Shown here in pieces: positions 1,455 to 63,754 of a stretch of DNA of 64,000 nucleotides (position 1 is the first letter of the stretch; every line of letters starts with the position of its first letter). Under the pieces are notes generated by a model that saw only the letters and a list, made by a program, of their open reading frames with translations, was not told the origin of the DNA and ran no database searches. The DNA comes from Chlamydoabsidia padenii (lineage: Eukaryota; Mucoromycota; Mucoromycetes; Mucorales; Cunninghamellaceae). The translations under genes and the position numbers were made by a program. Where the stretch lies: contig JAIWND010000012.1 of the NCBI GenBank assembly GCA_025330725.1, positions 620,001 to 684,000 on the forward strand, given 5' to 3'.

Positions 1455-1991
1455 TGAAGAAATTACTTTGGATTCTGGTTGTCTTATCCCTCTTCCAAAT
1501 ACCTTTTTTGTTTTTATACTAGTTGTCATTCTGTTATCTCTCTTTACCCCTTCACACCACACACACTTTGTCTTCTTTTTTTTTATTTGCTAACATGATT
1601 ATATTCTGTCAATAAAAATCTACTTTGTGATACTATGATATTAGGTCTGATGATGATACTATAGGTTTGGGTCTTCAAAGGGGCACCCAATTTCGGGTAT
1701 TGTGGTGAAATCATTAATGAGATAAGGGACTTTTCCAATACATTGATCCAGGTCATCCATTCACATCAAGGAAAAGAAAAAATAAAGTCGTAAAGTAACT
1801 GTTTTATTTGGTTCATGTTGGTTACCATGCTCGTCAAGTACATTATCCTTAGTTGAACTATGCGCAAGTTCGATGAAATTCAAATCCCGCCTTTTTCAAA
1901 TCCCGCCTTTTAAAAATAAAATCTTCTGGGCTCCTCTATGATTTTTCTTTCATCTCTTCTTGCTTGGCAATTTGACATTACCCATTTCGAC
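1455..1991. other. Intergenic, RNASEK copy 1 to ARPC2
   Basis: No ORF of note. It holds the RNASEK 3' flank, with an AATAAA-like motif near 1612, and the ARPC2 promoter with two tandem TTCAAATCCCGC boxes. Confidence 0.6.
1879..1906. promoter_or_regulatory. Two tandem TTCAAATCCCGC boxes upstream of ARPC2
   Basis: Identical 12-mers at 1879-1890 and 1895-1906, with starts 16 bp apart, each followed by CTTTT. They sit about 85-100 bp upstream of the ARPC2 ATG. This is the only tandem perfect pair seen in the window. Confidence 0.55.
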
Positions 1992-3318
1992 ATGATATTA
2001 CTCGACTATAACAATGCTATTATTCAAGACATTATCAAAACTAGATTAAGCGGGTAAAAGACTGCTGGATTATACTTTATTACCTTGTCCATAATACTCA
2101 TCTTTTTACTTTTATCCCGTTATAATTTATAGTGAAAAGAACGACGTTTTGGATATGACGGTAGTGGACTTTGATGGTGTTGTTTATGAAATCAAGACAC
2201 CTAATAAAAGGACAGAACTTTATATCTCTCTTCGCTGGATGTGCTACGACGAATTGGTGTCTTTTGGTGCTCAAAACATTCTACAACGTGTTTATGGGGA
2301 ATATCTTGCTGCCACTCCTGAACCCAACTACAACGTTACTCTGATAATTGACTTGGATACTGTACCAGCTGATGAAGGTAAGACTCAGGATGTAGAAATG
2401 GGGTGAAAGGTCAACTAGACTAATGGAATTGGGGGACGGGGGGATTTTTTTTTTTTTTTTTTTTTTTTCACTATAGAAATCCGTGCTGCGTTAGTTCAAA
2501 AAGTGTCCTTACTGAAACGTAACTTACTGGCTGCACCATTCGAAAAAGCATTTGCGGAACAAGAACAATATGAAGATGCCGATAAACCCAACCCTACTTC
2601 TGAACTTATGGCGGTACATTATCGTGAAGAAGAAGCCATCTATGTCCAATCTAGCGCTGATCGTGTTACTGTCCTCTTTAGCACCAAATTCAAGGATGAA
2701 ACTGACAAGATCTTTGGCAAAGTCTTCTTACAGGTAAATGTATAACTAATGATGATATAGTCAAAGGATGGTGGTTTATACTGACTGTTTTTTTTTTCTT
2801 TCTTCCTTTGGTCTTTTTGTAGGAATTCGTTGATGCTAGACGTCGTCGGGCATTCTCAGCACCTCAAGTATTGTATACAACTCGTGAACCTCCTCGGGAA
2901 CTTGCTCACTTGAATCTTGGGGATAGCGATGATGCAAGCTATGTCACATTTGGTAAGTGGTATGGATGAAGTATATGTAGATCAATGATGACCAATTCTT
3001 TTGTTTGTTTATAATATTATATAGTACTCTTCCCTCAACATTTCGAGCGTGGTGATGCTCGCGAAGAAACTATCTCTCGTATCCAAATCTTCCGCGACTA
3101 TCTCCATTATCACATCAAGTGCTCCAAGGCCTATATGCACACTCGTATGCGTGCTCGGGTACGGGACTTTTTAAAGGTGTTGAATCGTGCTAAACCTGAA
3201 GTCATCACTGAAAAGAAAACCATCACGTAAGTAAAAGAATATGTAATCCATCATTATTTGAAAACCAGCTTACTTACCAATTAATTATTCTAGTGGCAAG
3301 ACATTTGTCAGATCTTGA
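1992..3318 (+). CDS. ARPC2: Arp2/3 complex 34-kDa subunit (ARPC2)
   Basis: Six exons: 1992-2053, 2133-2377, 2477-2733, 2823-2952, 3025-3226, 3294-3318. They join in frame to 306 residues, the usual size for ARPC2/Arc35. ARPC2 and ARPC4 form the core that docks the Arp2/3 complex on the mother actin filament and supports branched nucleation in the cortex. The translation starts [19 protein letters not shown], contains the typical block [17 protein letters not shown], and ends with a basic helix ([21 protein letters not shown]). The first ATG after the promoter boxes is used. The last exon encodes only eight residues (completing T, then GKTFVRS) plus the stop. Confidence 0.95.
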
Positions 3319-3694
3319 TAACTATAAAATTCCTCCTTCTTTTATATGTACTTGTTACCCTTACACTTTTTTATAGTATATATCTTTGCTTTATCTACTT
3401 TTTAATCCTATATATTGACAAATAAAGTTGGACAATCTTGTTACTGTGTATCATGTTTATGAAAATTTGGGTTGATTGACATGTTACACCACCTTTACCA
3501 CTATGTCGGGAATTCAATTATCATTAATGGAATCTTTTTTTTTAATTTTGAGTCTCCCCTCCTTTCCTTTTTCCCTTCCTTTTTTACAACATACCATCCA
3601 TCATTCACATTAAATCATATAGATCATACCACACATTCCTAACATAAAACCTCACTTGCACTTTTATACCTATATATACAACATAATACAAACA
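3319..3694. other. Intergenic, ARPC2 to STK32-like kinase
   Basis: AATAAA at 3420 is a probable ARPC2 polyadenylation signal. A variant box CGGGAATTCAA occurs at 3507-3517, then CT-rich DNA leading to the kinase ATG. No ORF. Confidence 0.5.
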
Positions 3695-5521
3695 ATGGGC
3701 GCCGTTTGCTGTACACCTGAAGAAATTGACTTTGGAAGAGAAGGTAAGAAATGACTGACAATTGATAAACAAATGACTAATCCAGTTTTCTTTTTTTGAA
3801 TCTACTCAAGTCGAACTATCACACTTTTATTTATTACGAGTGATTGGTAAAGGGGCGTTTGGGAAAGTACGGATAATACAACATCGATTAACGGGACGGG
3901 AATATGCACTTAAATATATCAACAAAACACGGTGTATCGAACAAAACGCAACACACAACATTTTGGCGGAACGAAGACTATTGGAAAAGATTGAACACCC
4001 TCTAATAGTAAACATGCGATATGCGTTCCAAGATGAAGAACACTTGTTTATTGCGCTGGATTTGAAGATGGGCGGATCAATGCAATTCTTACTGGATCGG
4101 TTTACAACACTCAAGGAAATGCAGGTGCGGTTTTACGTGGCTGATCTTCTTTGTGCTTTGGAATATCTACATGGACAAAGGATTGCTCATAGGTAATGGG
4201 GGAAAAAAAAAAGAGGTAGTATGATGATCATGTACCAGGAAATAAAGGAGGAGGAGGAAGGGGAAATCATGTCACTAACCAAACCCATTCATTACCTATA
4301 CTATAGGGACATCAAACCTGATAACATTCTACTGGATGATAATGGTCATGCTCATATATCAGACTTTAACATTGCGACTCAATTCTATCCTCACAAACCA
4401 CAACGCTTCTCACGGGCTGGATCATTGGCTTATATGTCTCCAGAAATTGTTGGTAAACAGGGTTATTCTACCTCTGTCGATCTATGGTCTCTTGGTATTA
4501 CTTCTTTTGAACTACTATTTGGAAAAGTAAGTATGGAAATATCGTTACTTTTGCACATGTTATTATTATTTTTTTTTAATCACTCATCTCTCCCTTTTAT
4601 TGTTATTTTATATAATAGCGTCCTTTCACGGGGAAGTCCAATGAAGAAATCACTCAAGCTATACTACAAGATGAAGTTGTATTCCCCGACAATGCTTTGG
4701 AACTCATCAGTCAAGATTGTATGGATGTGCTACGAGGTGTAAGTAAAACTTGCGGATATTGAAAATCGCCTAACTTTTCCCTTTTTGACAGCTACTTATT
4801 AAATCCCCTTCCGATCGATATGGTTGTGGAAAAGATGGAATACCAAGATTGAAGAAACATCCTTGGTTTCGTGGTATAGACTGGCAAGCCATGGTACATA
4901 AGACAGCCATTCCACCATTTAAACCCAATGTAATTATAACGATGAATGACTTTATATATATAAACAACCAACTAACTTCTTTTACTTATATAGAAAGATG
5001 AATCCAACTTTGATGCGGTACATGAACTGGAGGAACTATTACTGGAAGAAGTACCATTACGACCACATAAACGAATCGCCAAAACAAGTATGGAACTCTC
5101 TCAGCCTGAAACGGAAGATAGTAGACATCGACAATGGATGGATGAAAAGTTTTTACCGTTTGATTATACCCTAACCAATAAATCGGATCAGCAACAACAA
5201 CATCATGAAACAAAAAGATCAGCGCAATCCTCATCATCTTCAGTACCTGATTTGATGATCAATTCGACATCTCATACAACCAATGAAATAATCTTATCAA
5301 CAAGAACAACAACGATCGACAGCAATACTTCTTTAGGGGGAACTGGTATAGGTATGACTGGAAATCGACTACTTCGACGGGTTGGAAGTGCTCTTGATCA
5401 TTATGAACAAGTTAAATACAAGGCTAAAGGTTATGTATTGACTCCCAATAATGATGATGATGATGATAATGATAATAATCATATACTCTCTACTCTCCCT
5501 CAAGCTGGAAAACATGTATAA
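3695..5521 (+). CDS. STK32/YANK-type serine/threonine protein kinase
   Basis: Six exons: 3695-3743, 3811-4192, 4307-4526, 4619-4738, 4792-4929, 4994-5521; 478 residues. The N-terminus MGAVCC offers a myristoylation glycine at position 2 and adjacent cysteines for palmitoylation, suggesting membrane association. The kinase domain covers roughly residues 20-280: glycine loop IGKGAFGKV, VAIK-type lysine in YALKYI, HRDIKPDN catalytic loop (Arg codon split by an intron), DFN in place of DFG, and a MSPE activation-loop end. DFN is normal for the STK32 (YANK) branch of the AGC group, so the kinase is probably active. The C-terminal 150 residues are low complexity and end in an Asp/Asn run. Substrates are unknown. 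Confidence 0.88.
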
Positions 5522-5959: not shown

Positions 5960-5994
<35 letters not shown>

Positions 5995-13109: not shown

Positions 13110-13581
13110 AGCTATATATATATATATATGAAAGAGAAGTGAGAAAAAAAAAAATCGGCAATCTTTTGAGCCATTCCCTTACTTCCAACTCCGACTCCTC
13201 ACGTTCATTCACGCCCCAAATGGAAAAATACTTTACTTTTTTCAGAAAAGAACCATTGAGTATTTCATTCAATCATATCATTTATGATAACTCTTTTAAT
13301 GTGTGTGTGAGAGAGAGAGTATTTGGTTTCATAGTTGGGCTGGATCCTACCATTATTGTTTAAAGTTACAGTTAAAATTCGAGGTGGTGTACAATGATCA
13401 AGATTGCATCAATGCGGGGATTCAAATCCGGGTAATAGAAAAATGTTTTTTTTTTCTTTTGCCGGATCTCTTTCCTTTTCTTTCTTGAAACAGATACTCC
13501 CTCTTTCTTCACATTTCTTTTTACTCAATACTCCTACCTTTATTCTCCCAAGCTTTATAACTAACATCTTACATATATATC
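13110..13581. other. Divergent promoter region, coiled-coil gene and YAP1-type bZIP
   Basis: Contains an (AT)n run near 13113-13128, a CT/T-rich stretch and a box at 13414-13432. Small ORFs here are simple-sequence shadows. Confidence 0.5.
13414..13432. promoter_or_regulatory. Promoter box GCGGGGATTCAAATCCGGG
   Basis: Near-palindromic version of the recurrent element, about 150 bp upstream of the bZIP ATG at 13582. Confidence 0.45.
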
Positions 13582-17157: not shown

Positions 17158-17191
17158 TTTATATATCCCATCACATCAGGCGGGATTTGAA
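17158..17191 (-). promoter_or_regulatory. TATA box plus TTCAAATCCCGC box of the DHHC gene
   Basis: The minus strand reads TTCAAATCCCGC (17191-17180), then a TATATAAAG-type TATA element (about 17166-17158), then the ATG at 17108. The box therefore lies directly upstream of the TATA element here. Confidence 0.55.
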
Positions 17192-17758
17192 AATATCTTT
17201 TCGACCCATTTTATAAGGATTAAAGAGATCACTGTTTAACGAATTTACATCCACAATCCACTTTGTATTGGAAATCAAATACCGATACTGGTGTAGTTTA
17301 TTAAGTGAATTCTCATCTTTTGATTAAGAAGGGAAAGACAATGTTTTCAAATTCCGCATGTTCCCAAATCAAATACCACAACTCATATATATCAACCACT
17401 GTTAATGGATAAAGTGTCATGTTGGCATTTCGGTCATTAACATTGGCTAACTATCGAGTGATTAATAGTTTTCATCAATATGACAGAGGCAAAAGCATAA
17501 ACCAAGTCTCGGTTGTGAGCGGGGTTTATAATTCACAAGAATTATGCATAGACAACACCTGTGACAAACATTAAAGTTAATACCATTATTTTTTATTTTA
17601 TTTGTTCAACAACTATTTTCAGATAACTATTCCTATACAAGTATTTGTACAATGATAATAAAGCAAGGGATTGAATGCGGAAGGGGGTAAGGTACATGTA
17701 TAAACAATGGAGTAGTTGTTATTGGTTTTTTAATAATGTCGTACAAAGTGGCAGATGG
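17192..17758. other. Intergenic, DHHC promoter to PNUTS-like 3' end
   Basis: No ORF of note. A variant TTCAAATTCCGC occurs at 17346-17357. Confidence 0.5.
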
Positions 17759-19095: not shown

Positions 19096-19621
19096 CAAGT
19101 GCGAAATAGTAGAGAAAGAGAAAGAAGGAGAGAGAAAGAAAAAAAAAAGGAGGAAGGGGATGAAACGTTTGAAGTAATTTTCAACCCCGCTTCAGCAGCA
19201 ACCTTATAATTTGAAACGCCGATTGCAGCTACAGCATGAACGCCTCTTTCATGAGTTCTATTGCCTTTGATAGAGCCTTTGTATGAAGTATTTTTACTAG
19301 ACTGATTGTAAAATATATAAATGATGTTACCCTGTCAAAATTGATTCAAGGTTGTGACCCTGTACACACTTTACTTTATCCCGTGGGTACAGTAATTTGT
19401 AGTTTGTTACTTGGTTGACTCTGATCGACCATATCATCTCAATAGGATCATTCTTTAATACTTATTGGCTGTTCGTAGAGTAAGTATGAGTGTCTTTTTG
19501 ATGACTTTACCTTTGAGAACTTCTAGCAGCAGATCAAAGCATGACGTTGTGCACGGGGAGAGGTGAGGAAGATAAAAATCGATTTTTAAAAGGCCGCTCT
19601 AGATACTCATTTAAATCATGC

Positions 19622-22522: not shown

Positions 22523-23186
22523 ATTGTCCCAAGGATCGTCTTCTAACGCGTTTCAAATGGAAGAAAGGAGATCTAGTAATGACATGAGATTAGGAATTAG
22601 TATCACAAAAGATTCATGGTTTGCCAATCGAGTTGTGTACTATACTTGTGCAAATACTTTTAACGTTTATTACCTTTAAATAAGAGAAAGAGGAGAGTTT
22701 ATTAATATTTAAAGAAAAGAGAAGAGAAAGAGAGAAAGAACGAAAAAAGAAAAAGGGGAAGAAATTTTTAATTTTATAACCTGGAGGGCATCGGCGATTG
22801 AAAATGGACATCCTCCATGAAACGCCTGGCTGCAGTCTATTCAAAGGAGACACACATGAGGGATAAAAAGTATCAAGTTTATTCACAGATCTCTTTATGT
22901 ATCAGAACTAAAAATGATTCATTTCATTATGTTATGTATGACATTGTATTCGTGAAATGAAAAAAGAGATCCCGTTTGATTTATTAAACACCAGTCGACT
23001 GAGTCTGGCATTGTATTCTACTTTCTCTCTTTTCAACACAAATCAAATTGATTTAGCTTGATACGGTAAAGGATCTTGTTTATGTAAGAGTCTTTATGAT
23101 TTCGATACTCATCAGCTTTCTTCTTAAGGAATATTGTTGCAAATAACATTCTATCTACTCTATGATTTGTAATACTTTTCTCATTG

Positions 23187-26886: not shown

Positions 26887-27110
26887 AACTGGCCGTAGAA
26901 TACAGGCCAACTATCTGCTTAACTTTCTCCTGCCCAACTGGCCGTGGAATTCAGGCCAACTTTTCGCCCAACTTTCTCCTGCCCAACTGGCCTGTGCCGC
27001 CCGCAATTCGCCCGTGAAAAAATAACCCCCCCCCCCAATTTTTTCACCCAAGTTGGTCTGAATTCTACGCCCAACTTTCTGCCCAGCATTTTTCCTGCCC
27101 AGTTCCCACT
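26887..27110. repeat. 49-bp tandem repeat with degenerate flanking units
   Basis: Two near-identical units (26887-26935 and 26936-26984) beginning AACTGGCCGTRGAAT and ending CTTTCTCCTGCCC. More diverged units follow to about 27110 (AAGTTGGTCTGAATTCTACG ... CCTGCCCAG). Locally GC-richer than the surroundings. Confidence 0.75.
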
Positions 27111-27115
27111 TCGTG

Positions 27116-27565
27116 TTCAAATCCCGCTTTACCTTGATTCCTTACTAAGATTTTGGATGGGCTCTCCTCGCTCCCTTGTTAAAGGATGGTAAAGATTAAA
27201 ATGGTGATGTGAATACTATAACCCATTTCCAATATATTTTACCACAAAAGTCAAGCACCAGGACCCTTGTGCTAGTCAGTTCAAGCTTGCAATGAGTTTT
27301 ACCTGTCTTTTGCAAGAAAAAAGGACGAAGACTATTTTTTTTACAGACAGAAGCAAAAATCATTTTCAAATCCCGTCAGTTCCTAGTCAGAGTTGGAAGG
27401 AACTTCGCCGATCCGTTGTCAACGGATGCTAATGATTAAAGTGGCCATGTGGATACTATGACCCATTTCCAACATACTTTACCGCAAGTTCAAGTAACAA
27501 GACCCTTTTGTTGGTATGTTTAGGCTTGCAATGACTTTTACCTTTCCTTTATGATAGACGAAAGA
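27116..27565. repeat. Tandem duplication of a ~245-bp non-coding unit
   Basis: Unit A (27116 on) and unit B (27365 on) each start with TTCAAATCCCG, then about 65 bp later share GGATG-TAA-GATTAAA-TGG--ATGTG-ATACTAT (27184 and 27424, offset 240), CCCATTTCCAA-ATA and AA-ACCCTT. A partial third copy of the last segment (CCAAGCACCAAGTCCCTTGTG) lies near 26837, and a box-like TTTTCAAACGCCG follows at about 27573. Confidence 0.65.
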
Positions 27566-28225
27566 AAACTTCATTTTCAAACGCCGAACACCAAAATTCA
27601 ATACGCCTAGCAATTCCCGATTTGGGGGCATGATCATGGAGGGGAAGCGTTGTCAGTCGAGATTTCGATACTCGTTGTAGAGCCCAAGTTTACAGTATAT
27701 ATGCAGTCTCTCTCCACCCAGCTTCTCTCATGCCCCCTCTTTGCGAGGGCACTCCATTCCATTTCTATTACTATCAACACATTGTTGCGCAAAAAGCGGG
27801 ATTTCGAAATTTTATGATGTCCGTATGATTTGGCGTTTTTAAAAAACAACAGCAGGATTTTAATTATATAGAAAAAGTGTTTTGTTGTACTGTATCTGCA
27901 CTACTGTTACATTTTAACTATTAGTTTAAATCAATAGCTATGACAAAAAGATTCTTTAAAAAGACTGGGATTAAAACGGGGATTAAAAGACGTTGAGTTC
28001 AAGATATAATAGTTCTATCATTTTTTATAAGAGAGGATCTTTATCTTTGTCTTTGTTTAGTTATTTTGTCATTCTCTTGTTTAAACATTGGTTATATTCA
28101 ACATAAAAGAACGCTATTAATAAAATACCATTTCAACAATGCCCAATTGTTATGTCTCTTTTTTTTATATATCTTTGATGGTTCTAGTAGGGGTAAAGTG
28201 TTTTGTCAGCTTTTACCCTGGAATA

Positions 28226-28235
28226 TTCAAATCCC
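28226..28235. promoter_or_regulatory. TTCAAATCCC box upstream of PEX10
   Basis: Ten-base match to the recurrent box, 85 bp before the ATG at 28320. Confidence 0.4.
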
Positions 28236-28319
28236 TACATACCCCACATACAAAATCTGGATTTTTTTTTTTTTCATGTGGGTGGCTCTTTTTTACTTTG
28301 TAAAAAAAAAAAAAAAAAC

Positions 28320-29877: not shown

Positions 29878-31601
29878 GTCAACAGAAGATCGCCCTTCAA
29901 TCCCCTTTATATAGTAGATTAGATTGTGTAGTGTTATATATCATTTATGAAATAAACTTGTCCTTTGTATTGCGACTGCAGTATTCGCCTTTTGTCCATG
30001 ATGTATCTTACCGGTGGACTGGACTGGGTTTGTTTTAGGTCCATGGTGTGAATGGGATCACTTTTGTAGAGGGGCTACTTACTCTTCCTATAGCATGAGA
30101 TCCTGCAGCTGGGAGCGAATTGAAATCAAGATGAATCTCTTTTTTCTCTTCATCATTATGGCATATAATATTTGACTCTTGTCATCCTTTGGACATGAGC
30201 TTGTACTGAACTGAATCCTCTGTAGAATGGATACATTATTATCTAGTTGTTTGTTTGATATGATAATAAAAGTCTAAATCTGATATATCTTACTATTGGT
30301 CTATATATTGGCAGGGTTCTACTGTATGTATGTTTGGTATGCTTCACGTCTGTTGTTACTATAATGGATCTATATGATGGCGTCGTCCTGGTCATGAGCA
30401 GAATACTATGTGATAATGAAATTCGGGGGTCGCTCCCTCGAGCGGCATTTGAACTGGAATCTTCGCATGAATAAAAGGAATCGTGAATAATTGAGCCTGC
30501 GTCTACAAAGTATTCAATCAAACGTCGTCAGATACACAAATGACATTACATTGTATGTCTTTAGTATGGATAGCATTGAACCCAGTTTTATTTTGGGTAT
30601 TTTAGTATCTTGTGTATTCACAACAGTCTGGATTTCAAATCCCGCCTAGAGAGAGAGAGAGAGTAACCAGAAAGTATATCCTCTTCACATAGAAATAGTA
30701 ATCATAACTTGATACTGTTCCAACATTAACAGAATATAAATCAAAAGGGTTTGCAAGTTGCCTGAATCATCCAACAGAACCCTGCGTAGTGTAAGGGTTT
30801 ACTTCGGGTAAAAGCCTACCCTTTTATTTCAAATTCCGCAAAAAGGGTCTGCCATTCAAATTAACTTTTTTGATTGGTCATCTGTACATCCATAAAAGAG
30901 ATGTAATTTATTGCGGAGCACTCTAACCATGTTTTAGTAAAGGTAGATTGATAATAAAGAGTACTGGATCCAGTTAGATCCTGTGGGATTTGAATTTTTT
31001 ACCCACACTCTCGATTTGATTGAATGATTTCATGACAGGATCAGCTATAAAAAAAAAGGAACGAATAGTAGTAAACTTTATATTTTCTTGGGGTCATCAA
31101 TTCATACTCCGAACCGAGGAACCAAAAGGAAGAACCCTGACCTACTGTAGTTATAAAACTTTTTTTCATCGACCGATTGCCTTTCCCTAAAGCGTATACC
31201 AAGGTTATACTTGAATCTCAGCTGGGAATAACTTGGAAAGCGGAGGTTGATGATTCCCCACCCCCGCCCCCACTCTCCAAGTAGTACCTACTAGATCAAA
31301 CCCCAACTTTTTCTCTCTTTCCCCTCTTTGTGTAGCTACAAGTATATATGCTTATAATCATAATACATTGTTTTGCATGTACCACCAATATTCAAATCAT
31401 TGGGTTGTTTGGTACAGCAAAGAAAATATAAAGTTTTTGATTTCGGGCTTTACAGTAAAATCCGGGGAAACGGACATTGAATGTTGTTGTCGGGTTGTCA
31501 AAATATGAGTACAAAAACTAGGGAAACAAAGCGGCCGACTTTTTTTTTTTTTTTTTTTTTTTCTGATTCCACTCTTTTTCTTCCCTCCCTCTTTTACATA
31601 A
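29878..31601. other. 1.7-kb intergenic region
   Basis: No gene recognised on either strand. PEX10 3' signal AAATAAA near 29950; a box TTCAAATCCCGCC at 30634-30645; variant TTCAAATTCCGC at about 30828-30839; a GA repeat at about 30651-30663; T-run at about 31541-31562 upstream of the MFS gene. The minus frame 30521-30243 shows no family features. Confidence 0.5.
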
Positions 31602-33341: not shown

Positions 33342-34062
33342 TGCCTTTATTATATCACCCCTATTATCTCACATATTACACTTCCCATCTATATCATTGT
33401 AATCTCGTTATTTGTATTTATGTATATGTATATTATCTGTTTTTATTTATCTATTTGTATTGTCTGTGCCAATAAACTTTTTTGTTCTTGTCAAAATGCT
33501 TTTAAAATGTCTTGTTATGTAATGCCTCCTAATTTGTTTGCTCTCTTTGAATAGATGAATGGTTATAAACGAAGGTTGTTTGGAATGCATTTGCATGAAT
33601 GTCGGGATTTAAAATCTTTTTTGTGTGCTCTAGTATATAAACCAGCAAATGTCCATTCATGTAAAGCACCATAGTTGTTATATTATGCGCAAAACTTGTA
33701 TCATGCAATATACAATATCAAAAGAAAGAATTCGTAATGAGAATCATCATATTCTATCATACGCTGGTCATGTGCACTCTATCATATTTTTTGGTTAACT
33801 AATTAACCTTAATATCTAAAGTGATAAAAAATGGTTTCGTCTAGACTGCAGACAACATCCTCCAACAACATGCAAAAAAAAATGTTTAATTAATAAAACA
33901 AACCGGACTATTACCAAACCAAGAAGTAAAATATGATTTTATTGGCAAGAAGAGTAATAACAATGATAATTAACTATGTACATGAGTAAAAATAAGAGGG
34001 AGGACTAGGCTAAAAATAAAAAGGTATCCAGTGAGGTCACACTTTTGTCAAAACAGATCCCA
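33342..34062. other. Convergent intergenic region
   Basis: AATAAA at 33470 (MFS gene). CGGGATTTAAAA at 33603-33614 has no gene start close by. A/T-rich; no ORF. Confidence 0.5.
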
Positions 34063-36324: not shown

Positions 36325-36700
36325 GATTGTTTCCAAAGGATAAGTTTTGTTATACAATGAGGAAAGATAAAGTATAATGAGCAGGAAGAAGAGCGGCGTA
36401 TGGAAGAAATGAAAAGCAAAAATTTATTCATAGGCGGACATACATCGAGTAGAATTTAAAGTGCCGCTTATGCCTCCCCCCCCCACACACACACATACAT
36501 ACACGACCTTCTTTTTTCAATAAATAAACATCATTCATGTATAAAAATCCTGCCTAGTCTTTGACATGTTGATACCCAATTACAAATTATGTTTTATTAT
36601 GATATTCATTTCAATTACTATACTAAACAATGGGATACTATTACTACTGGGGATAAAACTATAGGGAGTTATGGCAAAAAACCAGAGGGAATAACTTTAG
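36325..36700. other. MBP1-like promoter and 3' flank of the CM1 gene
   Basis: Contains a C-run and (CA)n stretch near 36477-36493 and AATAAATAAA at about 36519. A plus-strand frame (36589-36798) overlaps the CM1-gene 3' end and shows no family features. Confidence 0.45.
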
Positions 36701-37837: not shown

Positions 37838-38346
37838 TTAGTGAATTGGTATAAAAAGGTAAAATAACAGAAGAAGAAAAAAAAAAGAAGAGCCGAAAGA
37901 GAAAGAAAATAATAGAATGGACCCAATTTTCCGACTTGTTTGAAGGCCAGTTGTCGGGGTGTAAATAAGTAGGGAACTCGTTTCTTGATGATCGCTATGC
38001 TAACAACAAGTAACAAGCCAATATAAAATATATAATGGGCAATCAAGTTTCATATAAAAAAGGGTTATTGTATCAGATACAGTACCATGTTTATCGACTG
38101 GAGAGGATATATGTAATGGTAAGAGGAGTAGACATAATGAATAGTCAATGCATTATTTATGTAGGATAAAACAGACAGCTGATGTCAATGAGTATAATAT
38201 AAAAATAAAAAAAAAGGAGTCTTTATTGATCGAATCTTCAAACATCAACTAAAAACAAACCAATAGAATATACATCCCTACACACATACAAACAAAAAGC
38301 ATTCTAATACTACTACTAACTATACTAGTTCCACCTAGGGTCCCCA
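37838..38346. other. Intergenic, CM1-gene promoter and YPK1-like 3' flank
   Basis: No ORF supported; A-rich strings near 37875 and 38200. No clear box; CCGACTTGTTTGAAGG near 37931 is a weak resemblance. Confidence 0.4.
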
Positions 38347-40528: not shown

Positions 40529-40926
40529 TGTAAGGTGAAGGAGATTTGGCAATAGTAAAACAAAAAACAAAAAATAAAAAAAAATAAAAAAAGGAGAAAG
40601 AAGAGAGGATTAATGTCTTGAGTTGGACAGAAATTGGTTATATGTTTTTTCAAATCCCGAATTACTAGTACTACCAACCACATCAACCTATTTTTATCAA
40701 TGGAAGGATTGGATCAAGTCAAATTACCCAAAATGGCTGTATTCATTACCATACCACTTGAGAGAAAACATCAATAAACTATTGCATACACACACATGAT
40801 CATTTAATAAAACCACATACATTACAGATAAAAATACAACAAAGTTCTTTATTTGACAAAATATCACTAACCCTACAGCCAGCCAGCCACCAACAAAAAA
40901 TATATACTACTATTTTATTACTCTAG
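40529..40926. other. Intergenic, YPK1-like promoter and URM1 3' flank
   Basis: Holds box TTCAAATCCCG (40649-40659) and A-rich DNA; no ORF. Confidence 0.5.
40649..40659. promoter_or_regulatory. TTCAAATCCCG box upstream of the YPK1-like gene
   Basis: Exact 11-base match, 121 bp before the minus-strand ATG at 40528. Confidence 0.5.
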
Positions 40927-41388: not shown

Positions 41389-41934
41389 TTGGTATGTTTA
41401 ATATGGGAAGAGAAGGGAAAAGCATCCAAGGGAAAAAAAAACTTTTGAAGACCCTAAGCGGTATTTCAAATTGTGGACTGAGTCGGGATTTCAAATGCAT
41501 ACTTTACAGGATGAGAAGTTGGTGTGAGGAAAAGAGCTTGTATGATACCACGTCTTTATCCTTTGAGACCAAGTACCAGCGATCCAAGGGGTATCTTTAA
41601 CAATGAAGGGATGTTAAATGAGCGTCAAAGAATTTATGCCTTGGGTCGGGTAAACTCTCGGGGCGGGTGATAATGATGGGTAGAAGAGAATCAAAGCACA
41701 GTAGGAGGAAGGTGCCATAGTCTACTCTCTTTTAAACGGAAAAGGAGTCATGGACTTGCAAACAAGGTGATTGTGGAAATCCGTACAATGGATGAGTATG
41801 GTAACGTCTTATCTAGTCAAGTAAAAAGGGCGAGACACAAAAATATAAATTCATTCTCAGCCGACGTTTTTTTTTTTTTTCCTTTTTCCTTTTTATTCTT
41901 CTTCTACTTTTTCGTCGATTGACCTTGTTGAATA
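41389..41934. other. Divergent promoter region, URM1 and HMT1-type gene 1
   Basis: Box variant CGGGATTTCAAA at 41484-41495; T-run near 41868-41880 before the ABC gene. No ORF. Confidence 0.5.
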
Positions 41935-45062: not shown

Positions 45063-45118
45063 ACCAATTCTTAACTACAACTACTAGACTTGTCAATTAA
45101 TCATCTTCAAATAAAATG

Positions 45119-45131
45119 CGGAATTTGAATT
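45119..45131. promoter_or_regulatory. GCGGAATTTGAAT box upstream of WDR83
   Basis: One-mismatch version of the recurrent box, 101 bp before the ATG at 45232. Confidence 0.4.
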
Positions 45132-46309: not shown

Positions 46310-46698
46310 GAAACTGACATACAGTTATCCTTCTCTCTCTCTCTCTCTGTATTTGTAGAATTTATATTTATGATTGTAATAAAGATGTTGATAGTGTGCA
46401 TTTGTCTTTTAGTACTCTAATGGTTTATACATGTCATATATAGTAGATCATCATTGCTTTGTATGCGTTCATGCAAAGTGCAGTTTATAGGTATCCATGT
46501 TAAAAATGTCGATCACGTGGGATGCCCCAATTCCTGGAGTAAGTCGTTTTGAGGCACAGGAGCAACGGGGTTTAAATAGTCTAATTCACATGGTTGGGTT
46601 CCTCCTGATTTTTGATTTATATTCCCAACACCTCTTTCTTTTACTTCTCCGTCCCTTTTTATTCTTATTGCCTTCAATCCTCTTCTTCAGAACACGAC
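46310..46698. other. Intergenic, WDR83 to AGPAT
   Basis: AATAAA near 46378. Box-like CGGGGTTTAAAT at about 46566-46577, 122 bp before the AGPAT ATG. No ORF. Confidence 0.5.
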
Positions 46699-47305: not shown

Positions 47306-47340
<35 letters not shown>

Positions 47341-48557: not shown

Positions 48558-48668
48558 GTTTGTTGATTTAAAAAGTTGGAAAGAGAAGAAAGAGAGAGCG
48601 CGCTGGAGCTGAAACTTTCGAGGGAAATAACCCTGACTGACCAAAATCAGCCAACCAAAGTACGTTAT

Positions 48669-48680: not shown

Positions 48681-48865
48681 TTCCCTTGAAACAAAGTAGA
48701 ACATGGTACCATTCATTACCATCATACAATCAATAGGTAGCATATCAGATACTTTTATTTGACTATATGAATGTGTTTTTTTTTTTTTGTCGATGATTAC
48801 AATATACTGGTGGTAGCTACCTGTTTCTTTTTGTCCAATAGATGAGCAACCATTCCAGACCATAG

Positions 48866-48877
48866 TTTGAATTCCCG
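48866..48877. promoter_or_regulatory. TTTGAATTCCCG box upstream of the Gemin8-like gene
   Basis: Box variant 69 bp before the ATG at 48946. Confidence 0.4.
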
Positions 48878-48945
48878 ACCTTGCTTTAAATTTGATTTCC
48901 AGTTTTGCATTCCCCCTTCTTTACTTCTTTTATTCTCTATCAACA

Positions 48946-49589
48946 ATGAACAGATTATCCTTTGGATCCTTTCACGCGGCTCATTTTAGCCCACAACATA
49001 CACAGCAATGGCAGTCCTATTTACAGCAACTTCATTCACATACTTATGAACACTATTACCCACCACAAGAACCAGGACACTATACCCATGAAGAATTAAG
49101 GCGGACTGATCAAGATCTTGACAACAACAGCGGCGATGACGACGACGACGATCTACCTTTATCCAAAGAAGCTATTGAAATATTCGAATTCTCGGAAGCA
49201 TTCTCCAAAGAACGTAGGTATCATAAAATGACATGGGTGGGTTTTACCAATCTGTTTTTTATTTTTATTTTTACTAATCTCACATAGAGCAACAAGATAC
49301 CGACAGTGATGGGGAAAAGGACCAACATGATATAAACACGATAATGAACGTGGCTACAGAACTCTACTATGATGGTATTGAAGCTCCAGTCACTTCGCTT
49401 GTCCTGTTATCGTCGTCTCCCTTGACAGTAAAATCAACATCAACACCACCGGATTCTTCCTCCGACACATCAAGTCGTATCCTTACCCAACAACATTTAC
49501 TCAATTCGGCTTACTTGTCATCCTGTGATCTACATTATCAAGAACAAGTCCCTTTGGTGATGTGGCCTGTCCTTCCTTTTAGATTATAA
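48946..49589 (+). CDS. Gemin8-like protein (SMN complex component)
   Basis: Two exons, 48946-49213 and 49288-49589 (phase 1); 189 residues. Residues 15-45 (FSPQHTQQWQSYLQQLHSH) are rich in W, Y, H and Q. An acidic run (GDDDDDD) precedes LPLSKEAIEIFEFSEAFSKE, and the C-terminus ends VPLVMWPVLPFRL. The order and the terminal W-P-V-[IL]-P-[LF]-[KR]-[FL] tail match Gemin8, which bridges SMN to Gemin6/7 in snRNP assembly. Similarity is short, so this is a motif-based proposal; without it the gene would be a hypothetical acidic protein. The alternative donor at 49217 would cause an early stop, so GTAGGT at 49214 is used. Confidence 0.5.
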
Positions 49590-49629
49590 TCAATTAATTA
49601 CATTTGACCTTATCTACTGCCGACATAAA

Positions 49630-49643
49630 GCGGGGATTTAAAT
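49630..49643. promoter_or_regulatory. GCGGGGATTTAAAT box upstream of HMT1-type gene 2
   Basis: Variant of the recurrent element 80 bp before the ATG at 49723. Confidence 0.45.
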
Positions 49644-52700: not shown

Positions 52701-53499
52701 ACTACTGAAACAAGGTGCCTACTCGAACTCTACTGATCAAGGTATCTATTGGGAAATGTGGCAAAAACAGCTTCGTGAAGACAATGACACCGAATCTACC
52801 TCTACTCTTGGTGAAATGAAAATCAAGAACATGGATTTGGATGGTGGAAAGGATGTGGCTACTGACCTTGACGCACCAAACGACATTAACAACAAACTTA
52901 CTACCGAAACGCATAATCAACAACAAATGCAAAATGTCGATAATAGCTGCACGAATCAGGTCAAACAAATAGATCACCCAACAACAATACCACGACTTGA
53001 TATCCCGCCTCATGATCCCGAGTTACCATCCACTCATGAACAAGTACTTGTATCTTCACCAGTCGAAGCACCCAACTCTCAAGGCAACAATGATGAAGAA
53101 GCGGTTGTATCGTCTCCAATTGAAGCACCCAACTCGCAAGGCAACAATGATGAAGAAGCAGTTGTATCGTCTCCAATTGAAGCATCCAACTCGCAAGGCA
53201 ACAATGATGAAGAAGCAGTTGTATCGTCTCCAATTGAAGCATCCAACTCGCAAGGCAACAATGATGAAGAAGCAGTTGTATCGTCTCCAATTGAAGCATC
53301 CAACTCGCAAGGCAACAATGATGAAGAAGCACCTGGGACGCCTAGCTCACCCATTCCTATTGGCAGCACATCAAACGATCAACAACACGAGCGGCAACAA
53401 CCCAGCGACAAGGACAATAAAAGCAAATCAAAAGCTAAATCCAAAAACAAGAAGAATAGGAAAAGAAAAAGTACTCGTAACAGCACCACCTTTAGATAG
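49723..53499 (+). CDS. HMT1/ABCB6-type ABC half-transporter, paralog 2, with repetitive C-tail
   Basis: Nine exons: 49723-50197, 50271-50663, 50722-51443, 51519-51666, 51737-51842, 51923-52182, 52253-52385, 52460-52570, 52659-53499; 1062 residues. Same order as paralog 1: extra N-terminal membrane domain, ABC membrane domain ([23 protein letters not shown]), then NBD with Walker [10 protein letters not shown] (split by an intron), Walker [10 protein letters not shown] and AHRLST. The ABC signature reads LSTGEKQR instead of LSGGEKQR. The C-terminal extension of about 230 residues carries four perfect 19-residue repeats and ends in a Lys-rich tail ([15 protein letters not shown]). Extra introns relative to paralog 1 fall at 50664-50721, 51843-51922 and 52183-52252, while one (43013-43074) is unique to paralog 1. 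Likely vacuolar; substrate unknown. Confidence 0.92.
53092..53319 (+). repeat. 57-bp coding minisatellite, four units
   Basis: Units at 53092, 53149, 53206 and 53263, nearly identical, each encoding [12 protein letters not shown][PS]-N-S-Q-G-N-N. A degenerate unit precedes from about 53044 and a broken one follows. It produces long antisense frames that are artefacts. Confidence 0.9.
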
Positions 53500-55204: not shown

Positions 55205-55682
55205 GACAATCACCGAAAAAAAGAAATAAAGGAGATATGCTTTGGAGCGGCGTTCAAATGTGCATGAATTGAGTTAATGGGGGTAATAGTGGTAACTTTT
55301 TTTTTTATATGAACCATCAACTACAATTTATATCACATAGCTAATAAAGATTTATTTGATTAGAATGTATCATGTTAATTCGTTTCTGCCGACATCTGGG
55401 TTTTCCATATGGAACACTAAACCTTTGTCAGCAGTAGCAAAAATTAAAGGGTACTGATGTGAGCGTTACTGAATTTGAATTCCCGCCATTCGTCCTGTTT
55501 TTTCGTGTTGCGGTGTTTTTGAAATACTTTGGTAAGCGCGCCCTTTCTTTTTTTTTTTTTTTTTTTTTTTCTTTCTTTTTTAGTCCTCCTCTCGATTTTA
55601 TGTGGTCTTGAATTCATGTAACTTAGTAGCATAGTCCAAAAGCAACAGCACTGATAAAACACAGATTACAAAAATTACTCTC
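55205..55682. other. Intergenic, TTP-type gene to BRCT gene
   Basis: Contains GCGGCGTTCAAATG near 55248-55261, box TTTGAATTCCCGCC at 55474-55487, and a T-run at about 55550-55570. No ORF supported. Confidence 0.5.
55474..55487. promoter_or_regulatory. TTTGAATTCCCGCC box upstream of the BRCT gene
   Basis: Variant of the recurrent element about 200 bp before the split start codon at 55683. Confidence 0.4.
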
Positions 55683-57877
55683 ATGTAAGTAGAAACAAAA
55701 CATTGGATCATAATTTGAAACTAACTACAAGTGTACTTGCCTCTTTATTGACAGGCATCAATCACCGACACCAACTAACCTATTCGGTTCAAACACATCA
55801 CCAGTATTACCGGCACCGACATTGACATTGGGGGAAACTGTACATAGATCGCCGTTACTTCAAAAAAGTGAAACGACCCATCTCCCACCGACAAACAACA
55901 ACCTATCCATCACCAAATCATCACCAAGCAGTAATGATTCAACAAAGACAGCTCAATCAGATGATGGCGTCTCTGTCTATCCTATACCCAACCTTGAACA
56001 ATTACAAAAACTGGAACCAAAGGAACGATTCTTCGAGGGCAACTTGATATATATACATAACGATGTTGGTCTTCCTCCTGAATTCCGCACTTGCCTCACT
56101 CAACAATTGGAAAAAGCAGGTGCTATAGTGACGAATCGTGAAAAGGACACAACAGGAAAGGACTCGGTTATCTACATCTTTAGGCATCGAGATTCGGAGC
56201 TCTTTATGGAAAAATGCAAGCAGGGGAAAATGGTGGCTAGTCTGGCTTGGTTGACAAATACTTTGCGACGTGGTTATGTAGAATCTCCTTTACGATCCAT
56301 TTGGGACTTTCCTTCACCAAAAGGAGGTATACCAGGCATGGAAAACATGGTAATCACAAACTATTAGAAAAGCAAATATAGAAAAGTACCTATTGTTAAC
56401 ATTGCCTTTTACTTGTATAGGTGGCTACTATTACTGGTTATGAAGGTGAAGCACGGACTTTGGTTTTCCAACTCTGCACTATGATTGGATTGAAGTGGAC
56501 ACCTACTTTAGGAAATGATACAACTCATTTGATATGCTCAAGGTAAGGAATAATGAAATACTTGATGATTGATGAACAAAAATAACACTTAACAATGTTA
56601 GCATTCCTTGGTTTTTTACAAATAGACGTGGAAGCTCCAAATACAAAATCGGTAGACAGAGGGACTGTTACATCATTAATCATCTATGGCTGGAAGAATG
56701 TTATCAACAATGGGAAAATAAACCTTTAGACGACGAACGATACTCTTACTATCCCGAGAACAATGTTATGCAGAAACTGATTGGAAAAACACCTCTTGGG
56801 ACAATGGATTTGGAAAAATGGTATGACAAGGATACACTGCCTAGCGTCACACCTTATATCCCGGCCTATCTACTACGCAAAACTCCCTCTCGAACTGATA
56901 CTCCTCTGGATCTTGAAGGTATACTCTTATCAAAACGCCCACGTCAAGCAGCTCTCGATGCATACTCTCAACTACGAGATAAAGTTATACCAGACATGAA
57001 CTCCTTCCAGCAAGAACAACGATTAAAGGTCAAACATCCCAGCACAATCACAACACCGACTGATTCAGCACCTTTGTCTACTTGCGGGAAACAGCCACGA
57101 TTGCCATTTGTAACAATGTCTTCAAAACGCATAAAAGTTCAAGACAATGGATCAACATCGCCAATAAATGACTCTGCTGGATCTATCAAGAATATTGCCA
57201 CTACTTCCTGCAACTTGACCAAAGAGGAAGAAAAGGTAAGAATCATAATACTTGACTCTATTCTGACCTGTCAAAGCTAACCAACATTCTTTTTATTCTG
57301 ATAGGAAATGCGAAACCTTGGTGGCAAAATCGTCAATGATATTCAAAAAGCTGACGTTCTGGTCGTCCCAAATCGAATGCTACGAACACCCAAGTTTTTA
57401 TGCGCCGTCAATCTTGGTATTACCATCACCACATATCAATGGCTCAAGGACTCGATCGATCATCAATCATGGCGGCCTGCCTCAGCCTACCAGGTGACGG
57501 ATACTGAAATGGAACACAAGCATGGATTCAAACTCGGTGACAGTTTACTGCGTGCCCGGGCGACAATGGATGGTGCTCGTGGAACTTGGCTTCGAGGGTA
57601 TGATGTATACGTACTACAGACTGATCAAGATAATCCTTTGAAAGGTGTGGTGGAATCGGCAGGCGGCAATTTTATTCCGGTCCCGAATAGACGATCTTTT
57701 TCGGAGGAAATGATCAAGGATAATGGAAATACTGTATTGGTGCTGGCAAGCAAGGATAGGAAACGGACTTGGTGGGCCGATCTTAAAGAACGTGGTATTG
57801 GTATTTATGATCAAGATCTGGTTATTGTTGGATCTCTGCGACAACAACTAGCACTAGATGAATTCAAAATAGGCTAA
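55683..57877 (+). CDS. Multi-BRCT protein (Brc1/Rtt107/PTIP-like) with a split initiator codon
   Basis: Exons 55683-55684 (AT), 55755-56349 (starts with G), 56421-56542, 56626-57235, 57305-57877; 633 residues. No ATG exists in frame between an upstream TAG and the first BRCT block, but splicing 55685-55754 forms AT|G. BRCT regions: residues about 75-195 (FEGNLIYIHNDVGLPPEFR ... VASLAWLTNTLRRG), about 200-280 (MVATITGYEGEARTLVFQLC ... THLICS ... IINHLWLEECYQQW), and C-terminal ones from about 445 (LGGKIVNDIQKADVLVV ... YQWLKDSI) to the end (WLRGYDVYVLQTDQ ... DLVIV). Such proteins bind phosphorylated histone H2A and coordinate repair at stalled forks. Orthology to Brc1 or Rtt107 is not certain. 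Confidence 0.82.
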
Positions 57878-58570
57878 AGTAAATGAAACTTGCCACATTG
57901 ATCTCCAACATTGCGTGTGTATGTGTCTTCCCCTGTTGTATCATATCTTATCCATTTAATCAGTTTAGCTTTAAAAAGATGTACATAAATAAATAAAAAT
58001 AAAAACTTGTTACAAGTCCTCTAAATCCTTTTCTTTTAATGATTATAATGATGTGATGGATGGTAAATAGTCGTATGGAATTGGGAACAGTGTCTTTTTA
58101 TACGACCATAGGCCATCAGGGACATGCAACCTGTTCCCGGAACTGGCTGTGTCAGAGCGGGGATTGAATCATACAACCGGCATGAATGATCGTATTAACC
58201 ATCCAAAAAGGACCATGATACATGTAATGTGAAAGGAGACAAGAGTTACTGGTTCTCTATTTTGCAAATACCCTGTTCGCCACGTGGGAGTCAGTTTTCA
58301 ATCATTACTTTGCCCTGATGTCCTCCTGTTTTTTTTATGATCCAATTCAATATAAGATAACATCCAAGCTTTATTACACAACATATATAAAACGTAAGCA
58401 TACAATAAACCAACATAAAAAGTAAAAAGTAAAAGAGGAGAAAAATGTATACTAAAGGAAGTAAAAGTACAAGGGGGGGAAGGTAATAGTCGGCGGGAAG
58501 ACATAGCGAATAAAAAAGGGGGGATGATGGTATGGGGGATATCTACTGTAATGAGGGTGCCAAAAACAAT
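57878..58570. other. Convergent intergenic region
   Basis: AATAAATAAAAATAAAA near 57989; a box-like GCGGGGATTGAATC at about 58157-58170. No gene supported; the minus frame 58504-58298 has no features. Confidence 0.45.
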
Positions 58571-58827
58571 CTACCGATGTGGGTTATGATCCGAGTTTCC
58601 TTCTGTACTGAGAGAATCCATCAATTTCATCATGGCGCCTACATTATATATGTACAAAGAAAAAAAAAAGAAAGAAAGAGTGAGTAACGCTTTGTATGTT
58701 TGTAGTGGATGTTCTTTTACCTATGCTGGGTGATCGTCGTCCCATCCGCTCCTCTGGTGGAGTTCCCATGAGTTGCGCATAGAATGGATGTGAACCTTGA
58801 CTGATGGATGTAGGAATACTGTTACAA

Positions 58828-58859
<32 letters not shown>

Positions 58860-61189: not shown

Positions 61190-63754
61190 TAAGGAAAAGG
61201 TGTAAATGTATATAAAAAATAAAAAATAAAAATGGAGTAAGGGTAAAAAAATAAAAAAGTGAAAAAGAAAAAATCCAAAGCGATAAAAAACCGAGGCACG
61301 TGAAATACTTTTAAGCTATTACACATACATTAACCATTACTGCCTTGATTTTCATTTGCTCCCCATTTATCTTGTCCATATTATATCCTCTTCTATTCAA
61401 CTCAATAACTCACTAATGATATTGATTCAATCACTCTTCCTCTTACACTCATTCTCACGCTTACACCTGGTTACTTCTAATATGGAATCCTCTGGGGAGA
61501 GTGGGGATTTAAATCCCGACTACAGGCGGGAGTTCAAATTCGAAACCTGAGTCAAGCCAGTTTAGTGTACCTGAACAAAGATAAAAGGTAGCAAGGCCAA
61601 TGTTTAAGATTTCTACCAGTATCATACAATAAATATACTAAAATTTATAAAAAATAAAGGTGGTACTATTAAACCTAATCGATCATGGGACAACGACTTG
61701 CCATGGAACCCAAAAGTGCTTCATTGTCGGAAGTTCAACTAACAATTCTTTCATGTAAGCGCAAAGGCACTGGGAAAATTTGAACCGTTGAAATGTTCCA
61801 GTCGGAGGCGATGCAAAATGTTATTGTCCCCGGCTTTTCAAAAAAAAGAAAAATAGAAAAGAAAAGAAAAAAAAAAAAGCATGACTGGGGAGGAATAGGT
61901 TGAAAATCCAATTGGAGAAACAAAGTTGGTGTGGAGAAGTGGATTGCGTCGTTGTGTACCTCTTGGCGGAGAGAATATAAAAGACGAACTTTTTTCACGT
62001 GAATGATGAACAATGTATTAGGATTCCATTATCACTAATACATGATGACATGTTATTTTGTATGAAACTCTTACTCACAAGTCATCCAAAAGTACAGTTG
62101 CTGTCAAAGATGAGTTGAAGTGGTGCATTTCCATACCTGCGGCGTTTGAAAATGTTCCTTGAAAGTTGACCCCAACCTATTTTTTTTTATTTCCTCTCTT
62201 CTTCTTTCCCCGTTATTCAAAACCTGTCATCATCACTAGACGTATTCTTCGAACACCACTATCTTTACTTTGGATTAGGTTTCTTGAACAAGATGGATCC
62301 CGTTCGACTTGGACTCATAAGATCATCTAAAGTAACAATGGCGGAAACCACATCCCCCTCTGTCTCTCACTTTTTGACCATGCCATCAAAACAATTCTTA
62401 TAACAGTGGATTCTCGCCAATACGACCATTAATGAAGATATGTTTCCCATCCTCGAATCAAAAAATAGCTTCACCACCACGACATGCTCACCAGTTGTAA
62501 AATTCAACAACAACCGGCTGATTTAAAGAGAAACAGTGGTAATTCTGTCAAGATTGACTGCAGTGGGCAAATGGATTGAAGTCAGGAAACACAATGGATG
62601 GAAATGAAGATAAACAGGTTACTGGAGCTTGTTTGATCCTGTCGGCAGATCAACTATTATAATACCAAGTAAGGTTACAAAAGAAAAACAACCAGGATGG
62701 ATATAAAAACTAACTAACATTATTATGATGATCGGATCGATTATGTAACTGACGCAATATTGCCTGATTCTCTTCCGATGATGTCTTCCGGGTGGTCTTC
62801 CTCGTCTTTTTCGACACGGGCAACATATTTTGGATAGGGGACCCTTTGATGATCATCTTTACATCTGACATACCATTGTATTAATGACAATCACATTATA
62901 ATCACCACCACCAGCAGCACAGCACTAACATCGGCAGCAACAATAACATTGTGATCAAGGATAATAGAATACCCGGGACAGGATGACTTTTTGGTGCATT
63001 CTTTGGCTGCAATCAATCATCAGGTAAGTCAAGGAACATTGTTTTTTTTTTGTTACTATTTTATGCTAACTTATCTTTTGTTATCCTCTAGATGCTATCA
63101 TCATGCTTTTAATAGACTACAACAACTTGTTTACTGGACCTACTCTTATTATATTAGTTAGTGATTCCCTTGATTTTATTCACTAATACTTGATAGTATT
63201 ACTTCCTCTAGCCCCCCCCCCACAATTTACATCTATTGCATTACACATTACATAATATTTTTATATTATATCTATTGACAATAAAAAACGACTTTATATT
63301 AAACTGCATTGACTTTCCAGGGTTAAATACATCGAGGTTGCAATTGTTTGATATACATTGGCTTAATGTGTCGGGATTTGAATCTGACAATGCGCATTAA
63401 TTGACAGGCTGTATGTCATAAAGAAAGGTAGTAAAAGACGCATGGATAAAAAAAGAAAAACTGCGATATCTTAATTTGTAATATGCATGGCATCTAGGGG
63501 TACTAATGCACAATCATTATACGCCCGGCACACAAAAGGCAATACCATCATGAGACGAATAGGATAAGTAAAAAAAGTCTAGGTGTCACATAATCGAATC
63601 TTTATTTAGATAATAAAAAACCATATAACTATACTAAAAGGATATATATATATATATAAAAACATAACAGCCATATAAAAAGGAGAAGGAGAGTCATAAA
63701 GGGGGAAGTATACCTATTAATATCTAACTAATTAGGATCCATGGAAATGATGAA
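61190..63754. other. 2.5-kb gene-poor region
   Basis: No intact gene recognised. Contains CACGTG at about 61297, a palindromic box at 61503-61518, GGCGTTTGAAAATG near 62151, a short frame from ATG 62292 (MDPVRLGLIRSS, ends after about 36 codons), a consensus donor at 63024 (CAG|GTAAGT) with a CTAG acceptor near 63091, a C-run at about 63213-63221, and AATAAAAAA near 63280. This pattern could be a spliced non-coding transcript or a decayed gene. Confidence 0.4.
61503..61518. promoter_or_regulatory. Palindromic GGGGATTTAAATCCCG box
   Basis: Two box cores fused head to head around TTTAAA; another degenerate copy (GGCGGGAGTTCAAATTCG) follows at 61525-61542. It lies 314 bp upstream of the bZIP ATG at 61189. 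Confidence 0.45.

Follow-up and report, generated by a model that had tools for sequence, protein, structure and literature searches.

CT-rich initiator regions are known in filamentous fungi, and in yeast the general regulatory factors (GRFs) provide another described means of marking promoters. Amongst the latter, Rsc3/30 belong to the Zn2Cys6 family and offer a precedent for such proteins in a GRF role, whilst Reb1 also acts at gene ends, where it blocks read-through polymerase. According to a comparison of 12 yeasts, GRFs and the words they recognise turn over by lineage, with Cbf1 giving way to Reb1, and some words are nucleosome-depleted only in Yarrowia (PMC2897762). With regard to the Mucoromycota, no general promoter element or GRF was found in print amongst open-licence papers, assessed mostly by listing, and a literature search on the exact words of the motif considered herein returned nothing on fungal promoters, as judged by title. 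This motif, CGGGATTTGAA, recurs along a stretch of 64,000 nt (the window) from the 34.2-Mb assembly of Chlamydoabsidia padenii (Cunninghamellaceae, Mucorales; JAIWND010000012.1:620001-684000). In agreement with this origin, a bZIP/DUF3425 protein encoded in the window matches a C. padenii protein at 100 % identity across the 565 residues compared. Judging from its sequence context, it is probably a general, orientation-independent and core-proximal promoter element of C. padenii, bound by a protein of the GRF type.

Exact copies of CGGGATTTGAA number 3,811 in the genome, divided almost evenly between the strands (1,902 and 1,909), compared to two (one on each strand) for the same word written backwards. 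With up to one mismatch permitted, KCGGGATTTGAA occurs 10,824 times genome-wide, against 80 for its backwards control. Within the window, CGGGATTTGAA is found at 27 places with no more than one mismatch, 10 of these being exact, where dinucleotide shuffles give an expectation of 1.48 and the highest count in 100 shuffles was 6. Methylation does not present itself as an explanation for the word, which differs from the N6-methyladenine motifs VATB and AAAACA given in the accessible part of a published account (PMC11258239).

Gene-based counts derive from a sample of 264 kb out of 34.2 Mb, comprising C1:1-200000 and the window. A small codon and splice hidden Markov model, trained on long open reading frames (ORFs), predicted 107 genes and 365 introns of median length 74 bp. 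Donors most often read GTAAGT (169 of 365), and TAG is found at 328 of the 365 acceptors. These gene-model statistics look sound; starts are predicted ATGs and are not transcript-based, hence all distances below are to a predicted ATG and not to a transcription start site. Genes shorter than 80 codons or lacking a predicted ATG were dropped, leaving 97 of the 107 for promoter counts. Sites were scored by a motif matrix (position weight matrix, PWM) with a threshold of 11 bits and the reversed matrix as control, and the definition of repeats drew on the 264 kb alone, such that repeat counts represent a lower bound.

Alignment of the 148 non-coding, non-repeat sites in this sample yields the consensus [AG][GT]CGG[GAC][AG]TTT[GAC]AA[AT][AT]. 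Every site has G at position 3, whilst CG at positions 1-2 and AA at positions 10-11 are near-invariant (145-147 of the 148 each). A spacer of 2 bp separates CGG from TTTVAAW in 85 sites, any other length from 0 to 8 bp occurring in at most 8 and a length of 4 bp in just one. Outside of the motif the flanks are nearly unshared, with no more than 0.39 bit per position, and mostly less than 0.15, across 29 exact sites. A second form, GGCGTTTGAA, which the sequence-only reading of this window had thought might be related, proves to be a variant of this motif in which positions 4-5 read CG, and accounts for 17 of the 166 non-repeat hits, coding ones included. That reading listed 20 copies, 17 of which lie within one mismatch of CGGGATTTGAA (those at 48866, 49630 and 55474 are more distant); the refined matrix, the training sample of which included the window, gives a hit of 11 bits or more overlapping each of the 20.

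The position of the motif relative to genes is strongly constrained. A site lies within 300 bp of the ATG in 64 of the 97 genes, compared to 3 with the reversed matrix. Sites peak at 80-140 bp before the ATG with no strand preference, and their density is 4-6 per kb at 50-150 bp upstream versus 1-2.6 per kb further up. A placement at roughly 60-180 bp upstream of start codons, in either orientation, had already been proposed, and holds for 55 of the 72 gene-hit pairs within 300 bp, with 28 on the same and 27 on the opposite strand (a site between divergent genes being counted once per gene). The enrichment carries over to held-out sequence: a matrix derived from C1 finds a site at 50-200 bp in 15 of 28 window promoters (control 0), and one derived from the window does so in 33 of 68 C1 promoters (control 1). 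By sequence class, density per kb of non-repeat DNA (≥11 bits) is 2.00 in divergent gaps, 1.98 in tandem gaps, 0.79 in convergent gaps, 0.21 in introns and 0.11 in coding sequence. All 8 divergent gaps of 100-500 bp contain a site, as do 12 of the 19 tandem gaps in this size range and none of the 10 convergent ones (Fisher p = 5.6e-5); widening the range to 100-800 bp gives 11 of 11, 21 of 30 and 4 of 17, respectively (p = 2e-4). The neighbouring TATA element, remarked upon beforehand at one gene, does not generalise, as TATA-like words are found in 10 of the 63 motif-bearing promoters and in 6 of the 33 that lack the motif.

A further regularity concerns a pyrimidine-rich tract on the coding strand, just upstream of the ATG. 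When 53 promoters are aligned on the site, the C+T fraction rises on the gene side from about 0.5 to 0.883 at +50..+59 bp; permuting site positions among the 53 promoters reduces this value to 0.692, and 0 of 1,000 permutations reach the one observed. The corresponding step statistic is 0.31, against 0.095 (sd 0.028) under permutation, and was exceeded in 0 of 10,000 trials. The tract profile is alike in both orientations of the site and in both held-out halves. The median distance from the centre of the site to the start of the tract is 40 bp (interquartile range 30-48), and the tract is densest at 50-60 bp. Four divergent gaps of no more than 300 bp contain one site each, and each of their eight sides has a higher C+T fraction at 40-70 bp than at 10-35 bp (0.60-0.93 vs 0.20-0.68), two sides reaching just 0.60 and 0.63. 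The motif-to-ATG and tract-to-ATG distances correlate at 0.84, a figure that is partly built in, as the search for the tract covered the interval from motif to ATG, and that was set aside in favour of the permutation tests. Given the near-fixed distance from site to tract, we infer that the site may set the initiation zone.

In mechanistic terms, a single sequence-specific protein of the GRF type would bind the motif as an asymmetric site, contacting both CGG and TTTVAA. The bound putative factor would open chromatin jointly with the T-rich tract and would thereby set the RNA polymerase II start, in one or both directions; the same protein might also mark gene ends. As a first guess, the candidate binder is a Zn2Cys6 monomer, because CGG, typical of the sites of such proteins, is near-invariant and the genome holds 46 matches to the Zn2Cys6 domain. 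Next in line would be a variant of E2F/DP or a factor of the Myb type. The proposal made from sequence, that of a general promoter element, is thus supported, and is extended genome-wide through abundance, position, gap type and tract spacing. Two objections raised alongside it have failed, as positional enrichment upstream of genes is present, and sequence that recurs in the 264 kb accounts for 6 of the 38 exact copies (a lower bound).

Several observations weigh against a promoter role as the whole explanation. No site is found within 300 bp of the ATG in 33 of the 97 genes, and lowering the threshold gains no more than it does for the control; a 7-mer search of these 33 promoters for a substitute element gave no clear candidate. 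Coding sequence contains 14 hits compared to 1 for the control, a site is found in 4 of the 17 convergent gaps measuring 100-800 bp, and replacing the matrix by the plain 11-mer at up to one mismatch reduces the contrast between gap types (p = 0.036 at 500 bp and 0.076 at 800 bp). Many sites are also distal, with 78 non-repeat examples separated from the next downstream ATG by over 350 bp. A strong pyrimidine tract accompanies 21 % of these 78 on one side or the other, versus 73 % of 51 proximal sites and 6 % of background, so that some distal sites may mark unannotated promoters. The share of the genome that was sampled and the use of predicted ATGs, both described above, count on the same side.

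The region beyond stop codons adds to these points. Sites are scarce at 0-200 bp after the stop and rise at 200-300 bp. Once those that fall in the 250 bp before an ATG are removed, the 200-300 bp interval retains 16 in 6.3 kb, compared to 18 in 17.5 kb for the interval of 300-800 bp (p = 0.011, in a test applied only after the peak had been seen in the data). Those at 200-300 bp lie on the same strand as the gene in 12 cases and on the opposite strand in 4. This suggests that the same factor may also mark gene ends, as Reb1 does; unannotated antisense promoters could also produce such a peak. Of the 13 sites in convergent gaps, 7 lie 200-300 bp after a stop, which weakens the promoter interpretation and strengthens an alternative in which the motif is a chromatin or gene-boundary element (a nucleosome-free anchor, an insulator or a 3′ roadblock) over untranscribed DNA, promoters being one place of action among others. 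Such an element would account for the 1-2.6 sites per kb in distal intergenic DNA, for the persistence of the post-stop peak and its strand bias in the absence of promoter-proximal sites, and for the lack of a pyrimidine tract at most distal sites. It does not sit well with the higher density immediately upstream of ATGs, with the complete lack of sites in the 10 short convergent gaps, or with the fixed spacing from site to tract. On balance a boundary element appears unlikely, whilst retaining a real share of plausibility.

A transcription-factor site specific to one regulon, for instance that of growth or ribosome genes, would explain why around one-third of genes lack the motif, and is nevertheless improbable given that 64 of the 97 genes carry it and that their functions are unrelated. 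Pfam was applied to one exon per gene, picked by exon length, in 30 of the 64 genes with the motif and 20 of the 33 without. The former include a TrkH transporter, a transketolase, a syntaxin-18-type protein, a major facilitator superfamily (MFS) transporter, a bZIP protein, an FMN oxidoreductase, a RING protein and a PHP protein, with 12 of the 30 matching no family; genes without the motif are equally mixed, and 7 of the 20 match no family. These unrelated functions also indicate that the sampled genes do not form a cell-cycle regulon.

Similarly little credit attaches to the idea that the motif is a by-product of a dispersed repeat family, even though such a family exists. A head-to-tail tandem repeat of about 240 bp, dispersed and intergenic (C1:62760-63693), carries CGGGTTTTGAA once per monomer. 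In the window, a related repeat at 27105..27917 (no strand assigned), recognised by self-BLAST and by its similarity to the 240-bp tandem repeat, harbours two exact motifs some 249 bp apart at 27116 and 27365. Both had been listed as intergenic copies, and are excluded from the promoter evidence. Of the 38 exact copies in the 264 kb, 29 lie in non-coding DNA that is unique there, with 6 in repeats and 3 in coding sequence. The paucity of shared sequence beyond the motif, and the constraints on position, gap type and tract spacing, likewise argue against a repeat origin.

The sequence-only reading had also pointed to a resemblance to the paired cell cycle-dependent element and cell cycle genes homology region (CDE/CHR) of animal cell-cycle promoters, in which E2F/DP would bind GCGGGA and the LIN54 subunit of MuvB would bind TTTGAA. 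The likeness lies in a GC-rich half beside TTTGAA/TTTAAA, which is present in most sites. In humans the spacer between CDE and CHR is 4 bp, and the E2F core is of the GCGSSAAA type, with G needed at the residue equivalent to position 0. The C. padenii motif has a 2-bp spacer, CGG-N2-TTTVAAW being found 85 times and CGG-N4 once in the 264 kb, and CGGGAAATTTGAA occurs once genome-wide versus 3,811 copies of the motif. At position 0, G and T are found in a ratio of 77:64 amongst the 148 sites, such that T is accepted at a residue for which E2F requires G. There is no enrichment of canonical E2F words, GCGGGAAA and GCGCGAAA occurring 2 times each, versus 32 for GCGGGATT and 23 for TCGGGATT.

The LIN54 half fares similarly. 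TTTGAA and TTTAAA fit the TTYRAA preference of LIN54, as given in PMC4974476, and a hybrid E2F/LIN-54 motif, with the same juxtaposition of halves, is known in C. elegans (PMC3093354). E2F/DP domains are also present at six places in the C. padenii genome; the part of PMC4862756 to hand, which deals with E2F in basal fungi, contains no match for Rhizopus or Mucor. Against this, 28 of the 148 sites have C at position 9 with no compensating A at position 12, the A:T ratio there being 21:11 when C is at position 9 and 79:41 when G or A is. A shift in LIN54 frame, considered as a coupling between positions 9 and 12, was therefore rejected. Searches with PF03638 (the LIN54 CXC domain) and a plant CXC query gave 0 genome matches, and in the lack of a known-positive genome the absence of LIN54 is likely rather than proven. 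The LIN9 DIRP domain (PF06584) likewise gave 0 matches up to E = 10, as it did in 14 control genomes, so that its absence too is likely rather than proven; a control domain of comparable length, GATA (36 positions), returned 63. Together with the lack of a cell-cycle class amongst the sampled genes, these results leave a fused CDE/CHR close to refuted. Least credible of all is an extra TFIIIC site, in the form of a tRNA B box (GGTTCRANTCC) without a tRNA gene, since TTCAAATCC on one strand matches the T-loop part of the box and yet the G needed before TTC corresponds to C at motif position 12, found in 4 of 148 sites compared to A or T in 143, the near-invariant CGG falls outside of the box, and ARAGORN detected no tRNA genes in the window or in C1:1-200000 (intron-containing tRNAs were not sought). 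Overall, the earlier interpretation is partly supported, and it had itself described both of these mechanistic links as unestablished.

Along the window, in its own coordinates and relative to the gene models, a first group of promoter-proximal elements consists of exact copies. One, at 944..958 (-; PWM 20.4), separates 1-869(-) from its divergent neighbour 1093-1454(+), the two ATGs being 81 and 142 bp away, respectively. Two more, 16 bp apart at 1877..1891 (-; PWM 22.4) and 1893..1907 (-; PWM 23.3), are 108 and 92 bp upstream of 1992-3230(+). The remainder are at 17179..17193 (+; PWM 23.3), 77 bp upstream of 16702-17108(-), and at 40647..40661 (-; PWM 20.6), 125 bp upstream of 38347-40528(-). 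A second candidate for 16702-17108(-), with one mismatch, lies 242 bp upstream at 17344..17358 (-; PWM 18.6). Further elements with one mismatch are located at 28224..28238 (-; PWM 14.5), 89 bp upstream of a RING-finger gene (28320-29762(+), by Pfam), and at 45117..45131 (+; PWM 17.8), 108 bp upstream of 45232-46309(+). The gene 40927-41323(-) has two elements, at 41457..41471 (+; PWM 17.6) and 41482..41496 (+; one mismatch; PWM 21.1), lying 140 and 165 bp upstream.

Amongst the other elements recognised by the matrix, those at 3505..3519 (+; PWM 17.4) and 13413..13427 (+; PWM 17.3) are 183 bp upstream of 3695-5521(+) and 162 bp upstream of a bZIP/PAP1-type gene (13582-14861(+); Pfam PF08601/PF00170), respectively. 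Upstream of 18853-19095(-) are elements at 19177..19191 (-; 88 bp; PWM 15.2) and, in the CGGCGTTTCAA form, at 19209..19223 (-; 120 bp; PWM 17.4). An MFS-transporter gene (31602-33341(+); Pfam PF07690) is preceded by 106 bp by the element at 31489..31503 (+; PWM 14.5), 36701-37837(-) by 122 bp by that at 37953..37967 (+; PWM 15.4), and 48946-49589(+) by 74 bp by that at 48865..48879 (-; PWM 16.6). At 49629..49643 (+; PWM 15.6) an element lies 150 bp upstream of an ABC-transporter gene, 49786-53499(+), with PF00664 in ORF 50613-51707. More distant candidates are those at 22790..22804 (+; PWM 16.1), 274 bp upstream of 20875-22522(-), and at 55473..55487 (-; PWM 19.5), 203 bp upstream of a BRCT-domain gene (55683-57877(+); Pfam on ORF 57308-57877). 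A weak candidate at 36454..36468 (-; PWM 11.4) is 218 bp upstream of an ankyrin-repeat gene (34063-36242(-), by Pfam). The candidate at 46564..46578 (+; PWM 14.6) lies between two genes, 261 bp past the stop of 45232-46309(+) and 296 bp ahead of 46867-47900(+). Copies in 3′ flanks are found at 17518..17532 (+; PWM 15.1), 233 bp after the stop of 17759-18551(-), and, in convergent gaps, at 33601..33615 (+; one mismatch; PWM 20.6) and 58156..58170 (+; PWM 17.0), 266 bp after the stop of the MFS gene and 285 bp after that of 55683-57877(+), respectively. The earlier placing of most copies near starts does not extend to those at 30634, 33603, 53538, 61503 and 63372, for which the next ATG is over 300 bp away.

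A number of incidental features were recorded in the sampled sequence. Amongst neighbouring non-repeat sites less than 400 bp apart, drawn from the proximal and distal sets described above, 17 of 37 pairs are spaced by 150-250 bp, with none at 50-100 or 250-300 bp; nucleosome-size spacing and an old repeat are candidate readings of this pattern. The ABC-transporter genes 41935-45062 and 49786-53499 are duplicated, with blocks that are 70-80 % alike, and a motif within 300 bp of the ATG is found for the second but not for the first. The predicted coding sequence of the second also includes a 57-bp tandem repeat (53031-53388). The repeated stretches 1093-1454 and 48196-48558, of equal length (363 bp) and covering small predicted genes of about 90 codons, are probably copies of each other. 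At C1:33275-36841, a gene without the motif in its upstream 300 bp encodes 12 HAMP-domain stretches in one exon, an array typical of fungal group III histidine kinases.

Going beyond the existence of a promoter element, it may tentatively be proposed, with less assurance, that a lineage-specific factor in the Mucorales, or at least in this family, reads KCGG-N2-TTTVAA and measures some 40-60 bp to the tract. Instead of TATA or yeast-type GRFs, this would be the chief signal by which promoters are defined, bidirectional from a single asymmetric site, and perhaps marking gene ends in addition. If so, one word would mark most promoters of an early-diverging fungus, offering a direct handle for promoter prediction and for expression vectors in that lineage, and the known turnover of GRFs would reach beyond the Ascomycota. 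In common with the yeast GRF sites (Reb1, Abf1, Cbf1 and Rsc3/30, together with poly(dA:dT)), which are abundant, function-independent promoter words beside T-rich tracts, the motif is found ahead of a large share of genes with unrelated functions, is restricted in position in either orientation and is associated with a T-rich tract. Its sequence and the phylum that harbours it differ from those of the yeast sites. Similarly, the pyrimidine-rich tract on the coding strand just before the ATG recalls the CT-rich initiators of filamentous fungi, whereas in C. padenii the start of the tract is tied to an upstream, sequence-specific site, at a spacing that seems stricter than that familiar from the yeast GRFs.

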